Shown piece by piece: positions 1 to 6,103 of a stretch of DNA of 6,103 nt. Positions within the stretch are counted from its first letter, which is position 1, and each line of letters starts with the position of its first letter. Both the position numbers and the translations under genes were made by a program. The notes under the pieces are model-generated. The model made no database searches and was not told the origin of the DNA. It saw only the letters and a program-made list of their open reading frames with translations. This stretch comes from Solirubrobacterales bacterium (lineage in GTDB: Bacteria > Actinomycetota > Thermoleophilia > Solirubrobacterales > Solirubrobacteraceae): NCBI GenBank assembly GCA_013813955.1, contig JACCQW010000124.1, forward strand, positions 1 to 6,103, given 5' to 3'.

Positions 1-590
1 GCGCCCACGCCGTCGCTCGCCGTGCGCATGAGCCCGTCGAGCGCCCAGCCCGCGGGCCCCGGGCGGCGCTCGGGCCGCCATTCTTCGGGAGCGCGAGCGG
101 CGGCGTCGCGATCGTCGTCGACGACCAGCCGGACGATCTGCAGGGCGGCGATCCCGTCCACCAGCGCGTGGTGGATCTTGCCCACCATCCCGATGCGGCC
201 GTCCTGCAGGCAGGGAACGAGGAGGATCTGCCACAGCGGCCGCGAGTGGTCCAGCGGCTCGGAGAGCACCGCGTCGCGCAGCGCCCTGAAGCGCTCGGGG
301 CTGACGCGCTCGTCGGGCCCGGTGAGCGCCACCACGTGTGCGGCGAGATCGAAGTCGGGGTCATCGACCCAGCGCGGCTCGGAGAGACCCAGCGGGGCGC
401 CGGCCAGCAGCCACCGGCACCACGGGACATCGTGCAGCCGGCCCGCCGCCCGATCGCGCAGCGCCTGCAGCGTGGGGCGCTCGCGATCGCCCGGCGCGGC
501 GAAGGTGGCACTCCATCCGACGTGCATGTGCGCCTGCTCGGACTCCAACCGCAGAAAGGACCCGTCCAGCGCGGAGAGGGTGGGAGCCAT
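1..590 (-). CDS. Wax ester synthase / diacylglycerol acyltransferase (WS/DGAT), N-terminal part, cut by the left window edge
   Basis: I translated the minus strand by hand from the ATG at 590-588; the frame stays open for 196 codons to the window edge, so the C-terminal portion is missing (family members are usually about 450-480 residues). Seen: the N-terminal LSALDGSFLRLE and HMHVG segments (residues 5-25), RWVDDPDFDLAAHV (73-86), PLDHSRPLW (112-120) and the complete catalytic signature HHALVDG (140-146), matching the HHxxxDG motif of WS/DGAT and related condensation-type acyltransferases. Known for the family: transfer of an acyl group from acyl-CoA to a fatty alcohol (wax ester) or diacylglycerol (triacylglycerol), at the membrane or lipid-droplet surface; the second His of the motif is the expected general base. 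The start overlaps the stop of the upstream reductase gene by one base (TGATG) with no clear Shine-Dalgarno, implying translational coupling. Family assignment is firm; wax ester versus triacylglycerol preference cannot be told from this part. Confidence 0.93.
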   Translation of the reverse strand, partial: MAPTLSALDGSFLRLESEQAHMHVGWSATFAAPGDRERPTLQALRDRAAGRLHDVPWCRWLLAGAPLGLSEPRWVDDPDFDLAAHVVALTGPDERVSPERFRALRDAVLSEPLDHSRPLWQILLVPCLQDGRIGMVGKIHHALVDGIAALQIVRLVVDDDRDAAARAPEEWRPERRPGPAGWALDGLMRTASDGVG

Positions 591-592
591 CA
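588..592 (-). other. TGATG stop/start overlap, reductase to WS/DGAT
   Basis: The TGA stop of the reductase gene (592-590) shares one base with the ATG of the acyltransferase (590-588). The bases just upstream lack a purine-rich ribosome-binding site, so the downstream start probably depends on ribosomes finishing the upstream gene. Confidence 0.85.
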
Positions 593-1681
593 GCCGGCCG
601 GCGTGAGCTCTTCGCCGGCGGGCGCCCAGCGCGGCGTTGATTTCTTTCCCCAGCGCGCATCGTCGGCGTAGCGCATGAGCGCCGGGAAGTAGTCGGCCAG
701 CGGCGGCGGGCACGCCCCGAGCGCGCGCCCGCGCAGGGCATCGAACACGCAGCGCACGCGGAAGTACGGCAGCATGACCCCGGCCATCTCCTCGGCCGCG
801 GGGTCCTCCCCGGGGGCGACGAACTCCGGGGTGGGAACGCCGAAGGCCTCGGCGGCCATGCGCGCGAGCGTCGCGCACGTGGGCGCGCCGTCACCGGCGA
901 CGGCATGGAAGGCACCGCGGCGCAGCGGGCCCTCCAGCAGGGCCAGCAGCGCGTCGGCGACGACGTCGACGGGCACGATGTCCACGCGGCCGTCGGGATC
1001 GGACGGGAGGGTGGACAGCAGCCCCCGCGCGAAGGCCTGCAGGGGCCAGTAGATGACGTTGAACGCCGGGGTCCATCCGGTGACGCTGTCGCCCACGACG
1101 ATGCTCGGACGCAGGATCGCGACGGGCAGGCCGCTCTCGTGCACCAGACCCTCGGCCTCGAGCTTCGTGCGCTCGTAGGTGTTGCGAAAGCCCTGGCCGA
1201 CGTCGCCCTGACGTTCGCGCACACGGCCCTCGCGCTCGCCGGCGACGTACGCCGTGGAGACGTGCACGACGCGCTCCAGCGTCCCGCGGGTCGCGGTCTC
1301 CTCGGCGAGGCGCAGGACCTCGCGGGTGCCGTCGACGTTGACCTGCCGGGCTTCGTCCAGCGGCAGCGAGAAGCTGATCGACGCGGCGCAGTGCACGATG
1401 GCCTCGGCCTGCCCGGCCACGCGGTCGCGTGCCGCCGGCGCGAGCCCGAGGCCGGGCTGCTCGAGGTCGGCGGCCACCGCGCGCACGCGCCCGGCAGCGG
1501 GGCGCTCTCCCGGCGCCAGCAGCGTCACGAGCATCGCGTCGAGACGGGCCTGCGCCGCCTCGTCGTCGTCCGCGCGCACCAGCGCGATCACCTCGCGGTC
1601 GGTGTGCTCGAGGACGCGGGCGAGCAGCTCCATCCCGACGAAGCCCGTCGCACCGGTGAGCAGCATCGGACCGCCGCTCAT
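590..1681 (-). CDS. Extended short-chain dehydrogenase, thioester-reductase / fatty-acyl reductase type (NAD_binding_4)
   Basis: A 363-residue protein. Seen: Rossmann motif LLTGATGFVG (residues 7-16), ALVRADDDEAAQARLDAML (33-51), an acidic DLEQPGLGL stretch (72-80), IVHCAASISF (95-104), VNVDGT (114-119), VSTAYVAG (141-148) and the catalytic pair Y169xxxK173 in NTYERTKLEAE, then ILRPSIVVGDSVTGW (189-203). This set is characteristic of the male-sterility/thioester-reductase branch of extended SDRs, whose members reduce acyl-ACP, acyl-CoA or carrier-bound acyl chains with NAD(P)H to aldehydes or alcohols. The protein stands alone: no adenylation or carrier domain is fused, and there is no room for the long C-terminal domain of alcohol-forming reductases of about 500 residues. 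I chose the ATG at 1681-1679 because it overlaps the fabI stop as ATGA and is preceded by GGGGA seven bases upstream. Its place between fabI and a WS/DGAT gene suggests an acyl-thioester substrate, which is inference. A sugar-epimerase-like or hydroxysteroid-dehydrogenase-like activity is the main alternative. Confidence 0.8.
   Translation of the reverse strand: MSGGPMLLTGATGFVGMELLARVLEHTDREVIALVRADDDEAAQARLDAMLVTLLAPGERPAAGRVRAVAADLEQPGLGLAPAARDRVAGQAEAIVHCAASISFSLPLDEARQVNVDGTREVLRLAEETATRGTLERVVHVSTAYVAGEREGRVRERQGDVGQGFRNTYERTKLEAEGLVHESGLPVAILRPSIVVGDSVTGWTPAFNVIYWPLQAFARGLLSTLPSDPDGRVDIVPVDVVADALLALLEGPLRRGAFHAVAGDGAPTCATLARMAAEAFGVPTPEFVAPGEDPAAEEMAGVMLPYFRVRCVFDALRGRALGACPPPLADYFPALMRYADDARWGKKSTPRWAPAGEELTPAG
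1678..1681 (-). other. ATGA stop/start overlap, fabI to reductase
   Basis: The ATG of the reductase (1681-1679) overlaps the TGA of fabI (1680-1678) by two bases (four-base ATGA). A GGGGA ribosome-binding site candidate lies at 1693-1689, seven bases ahead. This fixes the reductase start although the reading frame stays open far upstream. Confidence 0.85.
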
Positions 1682-2454
1682 ACCGCCGTCCCCATGGCGT
1701 GGAAGCCACCGTCGACGTGGAGGATCTCGCCGGTGATGGCGCGCGCGGCAGGTGACAGCAGAAAGCACACGGTGGCCGCCACCGGACCGGGATCGGCCGT
1801 GTCCCAGCCCAGTGGGGCCTGGGTGCGCCACGCCTCGGCGAGCTGGTCGAAGCCGGGGATGCCGCCGGCGGCGAGCGTCTCCAGCGGGCCTGCGGCGACG
1901 AGGTTCACGCGCACGCCGCGCGGGCCGACGTCGCGGGCCACGTAGCGCGCGACCGCCTCGAGCGCCGCCTTGGAGACGCCCATCCAGTCGTAGATCGGCC
2001 ACGCGACCGTGGCGTCGAAGTCCAGCCCGACGACCGCGCCGCCCTGCTCGCCGCGCTCGAGCAGCTCGAGCAGCCCGGCGGTCAGGGCCTTCAGCGAGTA
2101 CGCGCTGGTGCGGAAGGCCAGCTCCGCGGACTCCGGCGGGGTGTTCATGAACTCCCCGCCCAGCGCATCGGCGGGCGCGAACGCGATCGCGTGCAGCACG
2201 CCGTCCAGGCGCCCCCAGCGGCTCTCGAGCTCGGTGGCGACGGCGGCGATGTCGTCGGCCTTGTTGACGTCGAGCTCGAGCACGTCGGCCGGGGTGGGCA
2301 ACTGGCCGGCCGCGCGGTCGGTCATCCGCCGGCCGCGCCCGAAGCCGGTGAGCACGACCTCGGCACCGAGCTCCTGGGCTTGGCGGGCGACCTCCCAGGC
2401 GATCGACTTGCGGTTCACCACGCCGGTGATCAGCAGGCGGCGTCCGGAGAGCAT
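1678..2454 (-). CDS. fabI: Enoyl-[acyl-carrier-protein] reductase [NADH], FabI/InhA type
   Basis: A 258-residue cytoplasmic protein catalysing the last step of each fatty-acid elongation cycle, reduction of trans-2-enoyl-ACP to acyl-ACP. Seen: the FabI-type dinucleotide loop ITGVVNRKSIAWEVARQ (residues 9-25), VVLTGF (33-38), LELDV (59-63), LHAIAFAP (87-94), the SAY segment (117-119), GLDFDATVAWPIYDWMGVSKAALEAV (143-168) carrying catalytic Y155 and K162 with YxxMxxxK spacing, NLVAAGP (184-190) and TGEILHVDGGFHAMG (241-255). The Tyr-to-Lys spacing of seven, not the usual SDR four, separates FabI/InhA from FabG-like reductases. By memory of the sequences it resembles mycobacterial InhA and Streptomyces FabI. 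The position matching InhA Ser94 is Ala89. The ATG shares one base with the stop of the carboxylase gene (TGATG) and has no clear Shine-Dalgarno. Length is normal for the family. Confidence 0.95.
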   Translation of the reverse strand: MLSGRRLLITGVVNRKSIAWEVARQAQELGAEVVLTGFGRGRRMTDRAAGQLPTPADVLELDVNKADDIAAVATELESRWGRLDGVLHAIAFAPADALGGEFMNTPPESAELAFRTSAYSLKALTAGLLELLERGEQGGAVVGLDFDATVAWPIYDWMGVSKAALEAVARYVARDVGPRGVRVNLVAAGPLETLAAGGIPGFDQLAEAWRTQAPLGWDTADPGPVAATVCFLLSPAARAITGEILHVDGGFHAMGTAV

Positions 2455-2456
2455 CA
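2452..2456 (-). other. TGATG stop/start overlap, accD to fabI
   Basis: The carboxylase TGA (2456-2454) shares base 2454 with the fabI ATG (2454-2452). Upstream bases are pyrimidine-rich with no obvious ribosome-binding site, so fabI translation is probably coupled to that of the carboxylase. Confidence 0.85.
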
Positions 2457-3905
2457 GAGCGGGATGTTGCGCGCCGGCCGGAAGGGCCGCTCGGAGGTCG
2501 ACAGGGTCCGCAGCGTGCCGGCGAGCCGGTCGCGTGTCGCCGAGGGCGCGATGACCTCGTCGATGATCCCCTCGGCGGCGGCCGAGGCCGCGGTCTGGTG
2601 CTCCTCGGCGTAGCCGGCGGCGAAGCGCTCCCGCGCGCGCGGCGGGTCCTCGGCCGCGGCGATGTCACGCCGCCTGACGAGGTCGACGGCCTGCTGGGGA
2701 CCCATGACGCCCATCTGCGCCCGCGGCCAGGCGACCACCAGATCGGCGCCGAGATCGCGGCTGTTCATGGCGATGAACGCGCCGCCGAAGGCCTTGCGCA
2801 GCACGACGGTCACGCGTGGCACCGTCGCCGCGGCGAACGCGTGGACGAGCTTGGCGCCGTGGCGGATGATGCCGCCCTTCTCCTGGCCCACCCCCGGCAG
2901 GAAGCCCGGCGTGTCGACCAGCACGACCAGCGGCAGCCCGTAGGCGTCGCAGGTGCGGACGAAGCGCGCGGCCTTGGTGGCCGCGTCCGCGTTGAGCACC
3001 CCGCCGAGGTGGCGCGGCTGGTTGGCCACCACGCCCACGGCCCGGCCGTCGAGGCGGGCGAAGGCGGTGACCATGTTGCGCCCCCAGCGCGCGTTGAGCT
3101 CGAGCAGGCGGCCGCCGTCCACCAGCGTTCGCGCCACGTCGCGCACGTCGTAGACCTTGCGCGGCTCGTCGGGGACCGCGGCGTCGGGCAGCACGCCGGG
3201 AGGATCGACGGTGGGCCAGCGCTGCGGCTGCTCGAGCGCGTGCTGGGGCAGGTAGTCGAGGAGGTCGCGCACCATCCAGGCCGCGTCGAGGTCGCTGTCG
3301 GCCACCATCTGGCAGACGCCGTTGCGCTCGTGCACGCGCGGGCCGCCGAGCGTCGCGGCATCGACCTGCTCGCCGGTGACCTCGGCGACCACGCCTGGCC
3401 CGGTGAGGAACATCGACGCCCTGCGCGTCATCACGACGACGTCGGTGAGCGCGGGGGCATAGCTGCCGCCGCCCGCCGATGCGCCGCAGACCACGGAGAT
3501 CTGAGGCACCTGGCCCGACAGCGCGACGTGCTCGCGGAAGATGCGCCCGTAGCCGCCCAGCGCCGCCACGCCCTCCTGCAGGCGCGCGCCGGCCGACTCG
3601 ACGAAGCCGACGACCGGGATGCGCGCGCGCCCGGCCAGCCGCAGCACCTGGCAGATGGTGTCGGCGTGCGCCTCTCCGAGCGATCCGCCGAGATAGGAGG
3701 GGTCCTGGGCGAAGCACGCGATCGCGCGCCCGTCGACGCGCCCCGTCGCGCCGACGACGCCGTCGCCGGCGCTCGTGCGCTCACCCATCCGCCGCGAGAG
3801 GACCTCGCCGCGCACGAGCTGGATCGAGCCCGGATCGCACAGCGCCTCCAGGCGCCCGAGCGGCCCGAGCTCCTCCTCGGGGCGGGGGACGAGGGCGAGG
3901 TTCAT
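2454..3905 (-). CDS. accD: Acyl-CoA carboxylase carboxyltransferase, beta subunit (AccD6/PccB-like)
   Basis: A 483-residue two-lobed carboxyltransferase. Seen: N-terminal lobe with GVVGATGRVDGRAI (residues 49-62), FAQDPSYLGGSLGEAHADTI (65-84), FVESAGARLQEGV (101-113), the oxyanion-hole segment CGASAGGGSYAPALTD (140-155); C-terminal lobe with ARWGRNMVTAFARLDGR (272-288), VVANQPRHLGGVLNADAATKAARFVRTCD (292-320), VDTPGFLPGVGQEKGGIIRHGAKL (330-353), LRKAFGGAFIAMNSRDLGADLVVAWP (369-394) and MGVMGPQQAV (398-407). This fused N+C layout is that of actinobacterial AccD/PccB proteins, not the split zinc-finger AccD plus AccA of E. coli. It moves CO2 from carboxybiotin to acetyl-CoA or propionyl-CoA, giving malonyl- or methylmalonyl-CoA; substrate choice cannot be decided here. 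It needs a biotin carboxylase/carrier subunit that is not in the window. I chose ATG 3905-3903, which overlaps the fabF stop as ATGA, over a start five codons upstream inside fabF. Position after the ketosynthase parallels accD6 in the mycobacterial fabD-acpM-kasA-kasB-accD6 operon. Confidence 0.93.
   Translation of the reverse strand: MNLALVPRPEEELGPLGRLEALCDPGSIQLVRGEVLSRRMGERTSAGDGVVGATGRVDGRAIACFAQDPSYLGGSLGEAHADTICQVLRLAGRARIPVVGFVESAGARLQEGVAALGGYGRIFREHVALSGQVPQISVVCGASAGGGSYAPALTDVVVMTRRASMFLTGPGVVAEVTGEQVDAATLGGPRVHERNGVCQMVADSDLDAAWMVRDLLDYLPQHALEQPQRWPTVDPPGVLPDAAVPDEPRKVYDVRDVARTLVDGGRLLELNARWGRNMVTAFARLDGRAVGVVANQPRHLGGVLNADAATKAARFVRTCDAYGLPLVVLVDTPGFLPGVGQEKGGIIRHGAKLVHAFAAATVPRVTVVLRKAFGGAFIAMNSRDLGADLVVAWPRAQMGVMGPQQAVDLVRRRDIAAAEDPPRARERFAAGYAEEHQTAASAAAEGIIDEVIAPSATRDRLAGTLRTLSTSERPFRPARNIPL
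3902..3905 (-). other. ATGA stop/start overlap, fabF to accD
   Basis: The carboxylase ATG (3905-3903) overlaps the fabF TGA (3904-3902). A short GAGG at 3913-3910 lies four bases ahead, a close and weak ribosome-binding site, so translational coupling is likely. Confidence 0.82.
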
Positions 3906-5101
3906 GCGGCCTCGAGGCACAGGGCCACGTTGTGGCCGCCGAAGCCGAAGCTGTTGGAGATCGCGACCGCGGGCCGGTCGTCCTCGATCGCGAGCGGGCG
4001 GGCCGTGCCGGGCACGTGGTCGAGGTCCATTCCCTCCTCCGCCTCCTCCCAGCCGAGCGTGGGCGGCGCGACCCGGTCGCGCAGGGCGAGCACGGTGGCC
4101 ACGGCCTCCACCGCGCCCGCTGCGCCGAGCAGGTGGCCGATGGCCGACTTCGTCGAGGAGACGGGGATCTGCGCCGCCCGCTCTCCCAGGGCGCTCTTGA
4201 GGGCGGCGGTCTCGGCGCGGTCGTTCAGCGGCGTCGACGTGCCGTGCGCGTTGACGTAGTCCACCCCGTCGGCGGTCAGGCCCGCGTCGGAGAGGGCGAG
4301 CTGGATCGCCCGTGCGCCGCCGCGGCCGCTGACCTCGGGAGCGGTGAGGTGGTGCGCGTCGCCGGTGGAGCCGTAGCCCCGGATGGTGGCCAGGATGCGG
4401 GCCCCCCGCTCGCGCGCGGCATCGCCGGCCTCGAGCACGAGCACGCCGGCGCCCTCACCCATGACAAAGCCGTCGCGGCGAGCGTCGAAGGGGCGGGAGA
4501 CGCCGCTCGGCGACAGCGCTCCCATCGACGCGAAGGCGGCGCGTGACAGCGGGGTCAGCGGCGCCTCGGCGCCGCCGGTCAGCACCGCCTTCGCCTCACC
4601 GTGCTGGATCATGCGCGACGCGATGCCGATCGCGTGGGCACCCGCCGCGCACGCGGACACCACGCTGAAGATCGAGCCGTTGAGACCGTGGCGAAGCGAC
4701 AGCGCGGCCGATCCCGCATTGCTCATCATCAGCGGCACGGCGAGCGGAGAGACGGCGGACGCCCCCGAGTCGCGCAGCGTGTCGTGGTTGTCCTCCAGCG
4801 TGGTGATGCCGCCGATGCCGGTGCCCATGACGCACCCGATCTCCGCGGGGTCGTAGGGCAGCTCGTCGCCCCAGCCCGCCTCGGCCAGCGCCTCGTCGCT
4901 GGCGACCACGGCGAGCTGGCTGAAGCGGTCCGCGCGACGTGTCTCCTTGACGGATAGATGCTCGGTGGCCACGAAGTCCGCGCACGGAGCCTCGCCGTCG
5001 CGGATGCCGGACTCGCCCGCCGACCAGCGTTCGTACAGCGTGCGGGCGCCGACCCCGAGCGGACTGACCGCGCCGAGGCCGGTGACGACGACGTCGCGCA
5101 C
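3902..5101 (-). CDS. fabF: 3-oxoacyl-[acyl-carrier-protein] synthase II (FabF)
   Basis: A 399-residue condensing enzyme of the KAS I/II thiolase fold, which joins malonyl-ACP to a growing acyl-ACP with loss of CO2. Seen: N-terminal VVVTGLGAVSPLG (residues 4-16), MGTGIGGI (92-99), the nucleophile C151 in SVVSACAAGAHAIG (146-159), GGAEAPLTPLSRAAFASMGALS (176-197), RPFDARRDGFVMGEGAGVLVLE (203-224), H286 in NAHGTSTPLND (284-294), K318 and H323 in STKSAIGHLLGAAGAVE (316-332), and the C-terminal glycine-rich SNSFGFGGHN (382-391). The Cys-His-His set with the Lys is complete, so the enzyme should be active and is not a chain-length-factor-like partner. The start codon is GTG (5101-5099), ten bases after the acyl carrier protein stop, preceded by GAGGG that overlaps that stop. 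The protein is slightly short of the roughly 410 residues usual for FabF, with no missing motif. It is homologous to mycobacterial KasA/KasB. Confidence 0.95.
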   Translation of the reverse strand: MRDVVVTGLGAVSPLGVGARTLYERWSAGESGIRDGEAPCADFVATEHLSVKETRRADRFSQLAVVASDEALAEAGWGDELPYDPAEIGCVMGTGIGGITTLEDNHDTLRDSGASAVSPLAVPLMMSNAGSAALSLRHGLNGSIFSVVSACAAGAHAIGIASRMIQHGEAKAVLTGGAEAPLTPLSRAAFASMGALSPSGVSRPFDARRDGFVMGEGAGVLVLEAGDAARERGARILATIRGYGSTGDAHHLTAPEVSGRGGARAIQLALSDAGLTADGVDYVNAHGTSTPLNDRAETAALKSALGERAAQIPVSSTKSAIGHLLGAAGAVEAVATVLALRDRVAPPTLGWEEAEEGMDLDHVPGTARPLAIEDDRPAVAISNSFGFGGHNVALCLEAA

Positions 5102-5108
5102 GACGCGG

Positions 5109-5113
5109 CCCTC
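5109..5113 (-). promoter_or_regulatory. Ribosome-binding site of fabF (GAGGG)
   Basis: On the minus strand GAGGG begins within the TGA stop of the acyl carrier protein gene and lies seven bases ahead of the GTG at 5101. It supports the GTG as the true fabF start and suggests ribosomes re-initiate directly after finishing the carrier protein. Confidence 0.6.
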
Positions 5114-5360
5114 AGGACGTCCGCGCGACGACGATGTCGATCACGTCGCCGACGGTCTTCACGTTCTCGACGTCGGCGCCCTTGAGCTCGACGCCGTGGG
5201 CGTCCTCGATGATCTGCGCCAGCTCCGCGAGGTCGAGCGAGTCGATGTCGATGTCGGCGAGCTGCGCGTCGCGCGAGATCGCTCCGGGCTCGGCGCCGAA
5301 CGTCTTCAGGGACTCGAAGACCGTGCTCTCGATCGCTTCGGGGGTGGTGGTGGTGGCCAT
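5112..5360 (-). CDS. acpP: Acyl carrier protein
   Basis: An 82-residue acidic protein that carries the growing fatty acyl chain on a 4'-phosphopantetheine arm. Seen: the attachment motif DIDSLDLAEL, with S41 as the expected modified serine (Asp-Ser-Leu context), followed by the helix II/III region AQIIEDAHGVEL (48-59) and VKTVGDVIDIV, where the last helix closes the four-helix bundle. Two in-frame starts exist. The ATG at 5405 overlaps the fabG stop as ATGA and would add 15 residues rich in Gln, Pro and Thr; the ATG at 5360 has a near-perfect AGGAGGA seven bases ahead and gives the usual length for the family. I prefer 5360, also because the extra codons use A-ending triplets (ACA, GCA, CAA) unlike the rest of the operon. 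It sits between fabG and fabF, as is common for acpP, and a strong ribosome-binding site fits the high protein level such carriers need. Confidence 0.93.
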   Translation of the reverse strand: MATTTTPEAIESTVFESLKTFGAEPGAISRDAQLADIDIDSLDLAELAQIIEDAHGVELKGADVENVKTVGDVIDIVVARTS

Positions 5361-5401
5361 GGTGGTGTCCTCCTGTTGTTGGGGTTGGGGTGCTGTGAAG
5401 C
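5361..5401 (-). other. 41-base C/A-rich leader between fabG and acpP
   Basis: This is the only intergenic stretch of more than ten bases here. On the minus strand it has a short tandem repeat CCCCAACCCCAACAAC followed by the AGGAGGA site. It is poor in G before the ribosome-binding site and I see no hairpin, so it looks like an unstructured leader favouring ribosome loading. I see no terminator and no convincing -35/-10 promoter. It could also be read as 15 codons fused to the carrier protein through the ATG at 5405, which I consider less likely. Confidence 0.6.
5368..5374 (-). promoter_or_regulatory. Strong Shine-Dalgarno of the acyl carrier protein gene (AGGAGGA)
   Basis: Minus-strand AGGAGGA, nearly fully complementary to the 16S rRNA tail, lies seven bases ahead of the ATG at 5360. 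It is the best ribosome-binding site in the window and decides the carrier protein start. Confidence 0.88.
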
Positions 5402-6103
5402 TCATGCGCTCATGCCGCCGTCGACGAACAGGGTCGTCCCGGTGACGTAGGAGGCTGCGTCGGAGGCCAGGAACCGCACGGCGGCCGCGACCTCCTCGGG
5501 CCTGCCGGCCCTCCGGGCGGGCACCGCGGCCAGCACCTCCGCCGGCACGTCCGCGGTCATCTCCGTCTCTATGTACCCCGGGGCGACGGCGTTAACCGTC
5601 ACGCCGCGACGGGCGACCTCGGCGGCGACGGTCTTGGTCATGCCGATGAGCCCCGCCTTGGCGGCCGCGTAGTTGGCCTGCCCGGCGTTGGCGCGCGGGC
5701 CGACGACGGAGGCGATGTTGACGACGCGCCCGTAGCGCGCGCGGACCATTCCCTTCAGGCCGCGCCGGGTCATGCGGAAGGCGGCGTTGAGGTTGGTGTT
5801 CAGGACATCGTCCCACTGCTCGTCGGCCAGGCTCAGGGCGAGTCCGTCGGCGCGCACGCCGGCGTTGTTGACCACGGCGAGGACGGGGCCGAGGCTCTCC
5901 TCGGCCTCGGTGACGATGCGCTCCGGGGTGTCGGGATCGGTCACGTCGCCGCCGACCGCGGCGGCCTGGCCGCCGGCGGTGACGATAGCGTCGACGGTCT
6001 CGGCCGCGGCCGCTTCGTCAGCGCGGTAGCCGACGGCGACCAGCCAGCCGGCGGCTCCCAGCTCGCGGGCGATCGCGGCGCCGATGCCGCGCGAGCCGCC
6101 GGT
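5402..6103 (-). CDS. fabG: 3-oxoacyl-[acyl-carrier-protein] reductase (FabG), N-terminus cut by the right window edge
   Basis: The frame is open from the window edge to the TGA at 5404-5402, giving 233 visible residues; the first one is the Thr of the cofactor-binding TGGSRGIG motif, so only about 7-15 N-terminal residues should be missing. Seen (numbering from the first visible residue): TGxxxGxG 1-8, GDVTD (52-56), NNAG (79-82), N104 in LNTNLNAAF, S132 in NIASVVG, Y145 and K149 in NYAAAKAG, PGYIETEMT (175-183) and the C-terminal VDGGMSA. The Asn-Ser-Tyr-Lys catalytic set is complete. The enzyme reduces 3-oxoacyl-ACP to 3-hydroxyacyl-ACP with NADPH, the second step of elongation. The YNAG/ IETEMT region is FabG-like, and location directly ahead of acpP and fabF supports that role over a generic SDR. 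A GTG at 5944 lies downstream of the cofactor motif and cannot be the real start. Confidence 0.93.
   Translation of the reverse strand, partial: TGGSRGIGAAIARELGAAGWLVAVGYRADEAAAAETVDAIVTAGGQAAAVGGDVTDPDTPERIVTEAEESLGPVLAVVNNAGVRADGLALSLADEQWDDVLNTNLNAAFRMTRRGLKGMVRARYGRVVNIASVVGPRANAGQANYAAAKAGLIGMTKTVAAEVARRGVTVNAVAPGYIETEMTADVPAEVLAAVPARRAGRPEEVAAAVRFLASDAASYVTGTTLFVDGGMSA

Follow-up and report, generated by a model that had tools for sequence, protein, structure and literature searches.

A likely fatty acid synthesis operon continued by genes for a predicted acyl-ACP reductase and a WS/DGAT in one lineage of Solirubrobacteraceae

The type II fatty acid synthesis (FAS-II) operon of mycobacteria has the gene order acpM-kasA-kasB-accD6 and is not known to end in a reductase or a wax ester synthase/diacylglycerol acyltransferase (WS/DGAT) gene. 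Here we describe a 6,103-base stretch of DNA from a Solirubrobacterales bacterium (hereafter the window) that shares with the mycobacterial operon, by similarity, an AccD6-type carboxyltransferase gene among FAS-II genes but runs on into a NAD_binding_4 reductase gene (R), predicted to act on thioesters of the acyl carrier protein (ACP), and then into a WS/DGAT gene. The plant plastid acyl-ACP reductases DPW and MS2 combine NAD_binding_4 with a FAR_C domain, whereas R is bacterial, lacks a FAR_C match and is encoded beside FAS genes. Terminal reductase domains of polyketide synthases, nonribosomal peptide synthetases and carboxylic acid reductases (MxaA, CAR) act on a carrier-protein-bound substrate; R has their fold and motifs, and presumably their kind of substrate, but is free-standing rather than a domain of a large enzyme. 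The Marinobacter two-domain fatty acyl reductase (FAR) Maqu_2507, of the kind that we take PRK07201 to represent, has its N-terminal NAD_binding_4 domain in common with R, which is without the second short-chain dehydrogenase/reductase (SDR) domain. Maqu_2507 is reported to form an alcohol from acyl-CoA or acyl-ACP (PMC7744569) that serves wax esters (PMC10351704). The latter paper also reports an enoyl-ACP reductase near WS/DGAT in other Actinomycetota, so a location close to FAS genes has by itself a precedent; the neighbourhoods described there likewise lie near lipid genes, but these are Kennedy-pathway acyltransferases and an acyl-CoA synthase, not contiguous FAS-II genes with an acyl-ACP reductase. 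The open-access literature searched yielded no published description of a fab-R-WS/DGAT arrangement, and the terms acyl-ACP, thioester reductase and gene cluster do not occur in the main text of PMC11948995, on archaeal wax esters.

The window is the entire contig C421 of a draft genome of 2.25 Mb that is 77% complete and divided into 483 contigs. Its minus strand carries all seven genes in the order fabG, acpP, fabF, accD, fabI, R and WS/DGAT, with intergenic distances of 41, 10, -4, -1, -4 and -1 bases. Coordinates and Pfam matches, which exceed the cut-off for each gene, confirm the order given by an earlier, sequence-only reading of this DNA, and its statement that no gap is longer than 41 bases is exact. 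The families are also as that reading had named them, except that its accD encodes a PccB/AccD6-type acyl-CoA carboxylase carboxyltransferase rather than an E. coli AccD, and that the two outermost genes are truncated by the contig ends, fabG lacking its first residues and WS/DGAT consisting of its first 196 residues. Third-position G+C is 0.91-0.96 across the seven genes, active-site motifs are intact in ACP, FabF, FabI, R and WS/DGAT, and an Rfam search of the window returned zero matches. Strand, spacing and overlaps indicate that the seven genes are likely co-transcribed. Discrete FabG, ACP, FabF and FabI proteins with their active sites are those of a type II FAS operon; a 3-hydroxyacyl-ACP dehydratase, also expected in such an operon, is absent from the 6.1-kb window, as are fabD and fabH. 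In relatives, fabD-fabH lie upstream and a MaoC-type gene often stands between accD and fabI.

R (positions 590 to 1681, minus strand) is a stand-alone protein of 363 residues and a predicted acyl-ACP reductase. It matches PF07993 with 209.8 bits (cut-off 20.1) and contains the motifs TGATGFVG, STAYVAG and YERTK, which provide the GxxGxxG and Thr-Tyr-x3-Lys signatures, the three residues of the latter being invariant in 30 of 30 sequences. The predicted structure is confident (pLDDT 91), and the solved structure closest to it is that of rice DPW, an acyl-ACP-to-alcohol reductase. Fatty acyl, thioester and carboxylic acid reductases, whole or as domains, make up the seven best PDB sequence matches and likewise the top structural matches. 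These matches uphold the earlier assignment of R to the acyl-thioester reductases and give it a DPW-like fold. They also make it highly unlikely that R belongs to the extended SDRs with a substrate that is not an acyl thioester, such as a 3-ketoacyl compound or a sugar, as does its score of 210 bits for NAD_binding_4 versus 64 bits for Epimerase. R is not a two-domain bacterial FAR, given its 363 residues versus about 650, a PRK07201 score of 158.8 bits (cut-off 549) and the lack of a second SDR domain. It may work like the plant-type enzymes DPW and MS2, yet we do not assign it to that family; no FAR_C (Sterile) Pfam match was obtained at E <= 0.001, nor a match of any kind past residue 282. 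From fold and gene order only, we infer acyl-ACP as its substrate. The nearest named relatives of R come from Solirubrobacteraceae and other Solirubrobacterales.

To place the window among its relatives, R was searched against 146 genomes of the same family, giving matches at E <= 1e-70 at 95 places in 81 genomes. The 94 places outside the window and 7 weaker family matches make up a census of 101 loci in 84 genomes, with still weaker matches left out. Genes were assigned by a simple open reading frame caller and by tblastn chains (identity cut-offs, same strand, gaps under 900 bases), which miss genes diverged past the cut-offs or lying on the opposite strand; fabD, fabG, acpP, fabF, accD, MaoC and fabI were counted as FAS genes, and fabH was left uncounted. 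At least one FAS gene is contiguous upstream of R at 54 of the 101 loci (53 genomes), and the full fabG-acpP-fabF-accD-fabI set at 17. WS/DGAT adjoins R at 16 loci (12 genomes); a rough estimate that takes some 4 WS/DGAT per 3,500 genes and counts both sides of R on its own strand puts the chance expectation at about 0.1 in 101. R stands beside a two-component system only at 8 loci and beside none of these partners at 23. FAS genes, R and WS/DGAT occur together at none of the 101. Both pairings are thus recurrent and never combined elsewhere, so that the window joins two recurrent partnerships; the seven-gene order, on whose recurrence in relatives the sequence-only reading had staked its proposal, was found at 0 of 101 loci. 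Within the stretch examined of 28 loci from named genome contigs, 8 have fabG-acpP-fabF-accD-fabI-R and none has a match over 60 bits to the window WS/DGAT fragment. Of five loci from outside the family but within the order, one is FAS-linked and none has WS/DGAT; the complete chromosome of Conexibacter sp. DBS9H8 has fabF-accD-R.

A tree of 107 R proteins (the 101 family loci, 5 others and the window), broadly like that from a smaller set, groups the window R with FAS-linked R proteins of its genus (set supports 95 and 100) and places all 16 WS/DGAT-paired R proteins inside one set of 18 (support 94). Since these 16 loci occupy one part of the tree, they and the window reflect two linking events rather than 16; several independent origins of the pairs had been considered and were dropped once the tree placed them together. 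R precedes WS/DGAT at 11 of the paired loci and follows it at 5; in the former order the genes overlap by 4 bases in 9 of 11 (one has a gap of 14 bases and one start was not found), and 14 of the 16 paired WS/DGATs carry HHxxxDG. The Thr and Tyr-x3-Lys motifs were detected by pattern in 56/56 FAS-linked proteins (the window and one other-family locus included), 27/27 with none of the partners, 8/8 beside two-component systems and 14/16 paired with WS/DGAT; the glycine motif was found in 55/56, 26/27, 4/8 and 15/16, respectively. The WS/DGAT of the window belongs to a clade other than the R-paired one, so the window represents its own, separate union of R with WS/DGAT, placed at the end of the FAS genes.

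This WS/DGAT gene (positions 3 to 590, minus strand) continues beyond the contig end; its 196 residues match WS_DGAT_cat (PF03007) with 143.9 bits (cut-off 23.6) over profile positions 1-174 of 263 and include the HHxxxDG active site as HHALVDG. It meets R in a TGATG stop/start overlap of 1 base (positions 588 to 592, minus strand). On so short a contig (6.1 kb) in so fragmented a genome, the junction could be an assembly or binning error in which the end of an FAS-R contig was misjoined to that of a WS/DGAT contig. An error would also account for the order being seen at none of the other loci while genus-mates carry this WS/DGAT clade elsewhere, and among the seven genes WS/DGAT ranks last in third-position G+C (0.913) and has a codon-use correlation with the remaining genes of 0.83, below those of the others (0.85-0.98) except acpP (0.76). 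However, the boundary coincides precisely with where R naturally ends and WS/DGAT naturally begins, and the overlap is one that suits a real operon and would not be expected of a random join; R has a C-terminal end resembling that of its relatives, and the overall G+C of WS/DGAT (0.745) is in line with that of the other genes. We regard a misjoin as quite improbable.

The reading we favour, with about an even chance of being right, is that a type II FAS cluster, likely an operon, runs into an acyl-ACP reductase and a WS/DGAT, and that wax esters are the likely product of its own acyl-ACP. FabG, ACP, FabF, the carboxyltransferase and FabI, as members of their families, would elongate acyl-ACP, with FabD, FabH and the dehydratase encoded outside the window. 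R would take the acyl chain from part of this acyl-ACP and reduce its thioester with a nicotinamide cofactor to an aldehyde or, likelier given the DPW-like fold, to an alcohol, which the product of the cut WS/DGAT gene would esterify with an acyl group whose most likely donor is acyl-CoA. Known WS/DGATs draw the acyl half from acyl-CoA, so that only the alcohol half would bypass acyl-CoA; the bypass suggested by the sequence-only reading could hold for that half but not for the other. What is widespread is the combination of FAS genes and R, which relatives often have next to a two-component system, and this lineage has likely added WS/DGAT, repeating a pairing already used by a sister group of R genes. 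With FAS genes attached to R at 54 of 101 loci, and WS/DGAT to paralogues of R at 16, a link from FAS to WS/DGAT through R fits the gene orders of the family. A dedicated wax operon, as originally proposed, is plausible for this one lineage but not established for the family, in which the order was found at 0 of 101 other loci and three genomes with FAS-linked R lack WS/DGAT. A bolder version, which we think unlikely, is a closed line from acyl-ACP to wax, in which the main FAS hands ACP-bound chains to R and the wax synthase, the acid half possibly also coming from acyl-ACP. Wax would then be a regulated direct product of core synthesis rather than an acyl-CoA storage branch, and the FAS-R core would in relatives be set by its own two-component system.

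Several observations weigh against the favoured reading. R scores 161.2 bits against the NCBIfam thioester reductase model TIGR01746, below its cut-off of 213.35, which places R in the PF07993 superfamily and not in TIGR01746; the cut WS/DGAT (196 residues versus about 450 in full length) scores 147 bits against TIGR02946 (cut-off 310). Another host contig encodes a two-domain PRK07201-type reductase (997 bits, cut-off 549), so R is not the only candidate source of fatty alcohol in the host, and a host WS/DGAT of the R-paired clade (G000:C353, L202:950-2335) has no R alongside. The window WS/DGAT belongs to the clade of the second gene in tandem arrays of four genus-mates; these arrays are not adjacent to FAS genes, and its relatives there may make triacylglycerol. 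No WS/DGAT was found in the same-strand chain at any of the 54 FAS-linked R loci, though at 6 of these the contig ends within 1.5 kb downstream, too soon for one to be seen. Finally, the loci L015, L017 and L035 have fabG-acpP-fabF-accD-fabI-R in genomes without any WS/DGAT by family model (G052, G028 and probably G068, whose R is split over two contig ends), which are 91, 93 and 86% complete, respectively; together with G111 they account for all 4 genomes, out of 101, in which the window WS/DGAT has no match.

The absence of WS/DGAT from these FAS-linked loci and genomes suits a different role, possible though rather doubtful, in which R makes an alcohol or aldehyde from acyl-ACP for a non-wax use, for instance in alkyl ethers or other lipids of the membrane, and the neighbouring WS/DGAT is incidental and makes triacylglycerol. 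This role also gains from an alkyl-dihydroxyacetone phosphate (DHAP)-synthase-like gene in the host (G000:C237, L230), which counts against wax as well. Its closest matches are alkyl-DHAP synthases only; roughly the first 170 residues of the frame find a counterpart in almost none of the relatives. Such matches at E <= 1e-40 occur in 72 of 101 genomes, host included, making ether lipid synthesis possible in Solirubrobacterales; with the two-domain reductase, the gene indicates that other sources and uses of fatty alcohol exist. A desaturase or MaoC gene after R in some relatives points the same way. However, the WS/DGAT-less G028, G052 and G068 also lack an alkyl-DHAP-synthase-like match at that threshold, so R must do something else there, and the sister group of R genes paired with WS/DGAT at 16 loci is hard to explain by membrane lipids alone. 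The sole PF02913 match of G028 was rejected as an alkyl-DHAP synthase, being closest to lactate dehydrogenase and glycolate oxidase chains. A CarF-type plasmalogen desaturase (PF10520) was found in 0 of 101 genomes, but the control genomes gave no match either, so this negative shows little.

The window cluster is likely the main fatty acid synthase of the host, though not so in general. Its fabF and FabI are, respectively, the only fabF match and the only close FabI match found in the host genome, about 23% of which is missing, and fabF is likewise single in G034 and G035 (each 97% complete, with the full cluster). A second fabF (52% identical) is present in G028 and G052, both with the full cluster, and G067 has three fabF matches. 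A second complete FAS operon in the host, which the sequence-only reading had held would, together with triacylglycerol as the sole product, speak against its proposal, was not found, but five genus-mates (G022, G023, G025, G026 and G027) have another FAS set, with fabF 50-54%, carboxyltransferase 51-52% and FabI 66-68% identical to those of the window; neither G022 nor G027 yielded a fabF of the window type.

The remaining genes of the window all lie on the minus strand. The 5'-truncated fabG (positions 5402 to 6103), for a 3-oxoacyl-ACP reductase, matches Pfam adh_short_C2 (195 bits), contains a YAAAK motif and, cut as it is, scores 279.5 bits against NCBIfam TIGR01830 (cut-off 297.75). The acyl carrier protein gene acpP (5112 to 5360) has a Shine-Dalgarno-like AGGAGGA before its ATG at 5360, a DSLDL motif and a PP-binding match of 37.4 bits in Pfam; its top NCBIfam ACP model scores 46.5 bits, under the cut-off of 66. 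The beta-ketoacyl-ACP synthase II gene fabF (3902 to 5101, GTG start) matches NCBIfam PRK07314 (459 bits, cut-off 387) and Pfam ketoacyl-synt (145 and 131 bits), and has the Cys-His-His residues. The carboxyltransferase gene (2454 to 3905) matches Pfam Carboxyl_trans (469 bits) and, in the PDB, PCC beta chains and AccD6. The InhA-like enoyl-ACP reductase gene fabI (1678 to 2454) matches NCBIfam PRK07889 (357 bits, cut-off 299) and adh_short_C2 (237 bits), has Y-x6-K, and finds InhA-type structures as its best PDB matches.

Around R in relatives, a histidine kinase or response regulator occurs in the same chain at 45 of 101 loci (37 with FAS genes, 8 without), for example a GAF-HisKA_3 kinase and a LuxR/GerE-type regulator beside the cluster at L013:1400-3132, such genes being candidates for a regulator dedicated to fatty acid synthesis in the family. 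A fatty acid desaturase gene with a Pfam match follows R with a 4-base overlap at L031:11059-11937, and L156 looks alike by eye. L163 and L172 contain a fabH-WS/DGAT-R cluster, whose FabH-like gene is about 55% identical to the FAS-cluster FabH of L013. At L199:5244-7650 (G099, another family of the order), a sister-clade WS/DGAT lies divergently under 300 bases from fabI, beside an FAS cluster that by eye also has a TetR-like gene. Three WS/DGAT genes stand in tandem in the genus-mates G025 (C1:56599-60508, L197) and G023 (C23, L194), and two were seen in G024 and G026.

Should R prove to be an acyl-ACP reductase, reductive chain release would be an integral part of an FAS operon in numerous members of an actinobacterial family that has received little study, and would be the bacterial counterpart of plastid acyl-ACP reduction in plants. 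The enzyme would come ready for converting acyl-ACP to alcohol, having evolved alongside its cognate carrier protein and, in the present lineage, a wax synthase as well. Direct tests of the reduced lipids made by these bacteria would then become possible, with Conexibacter sp. DBS9H8 as a named strain.

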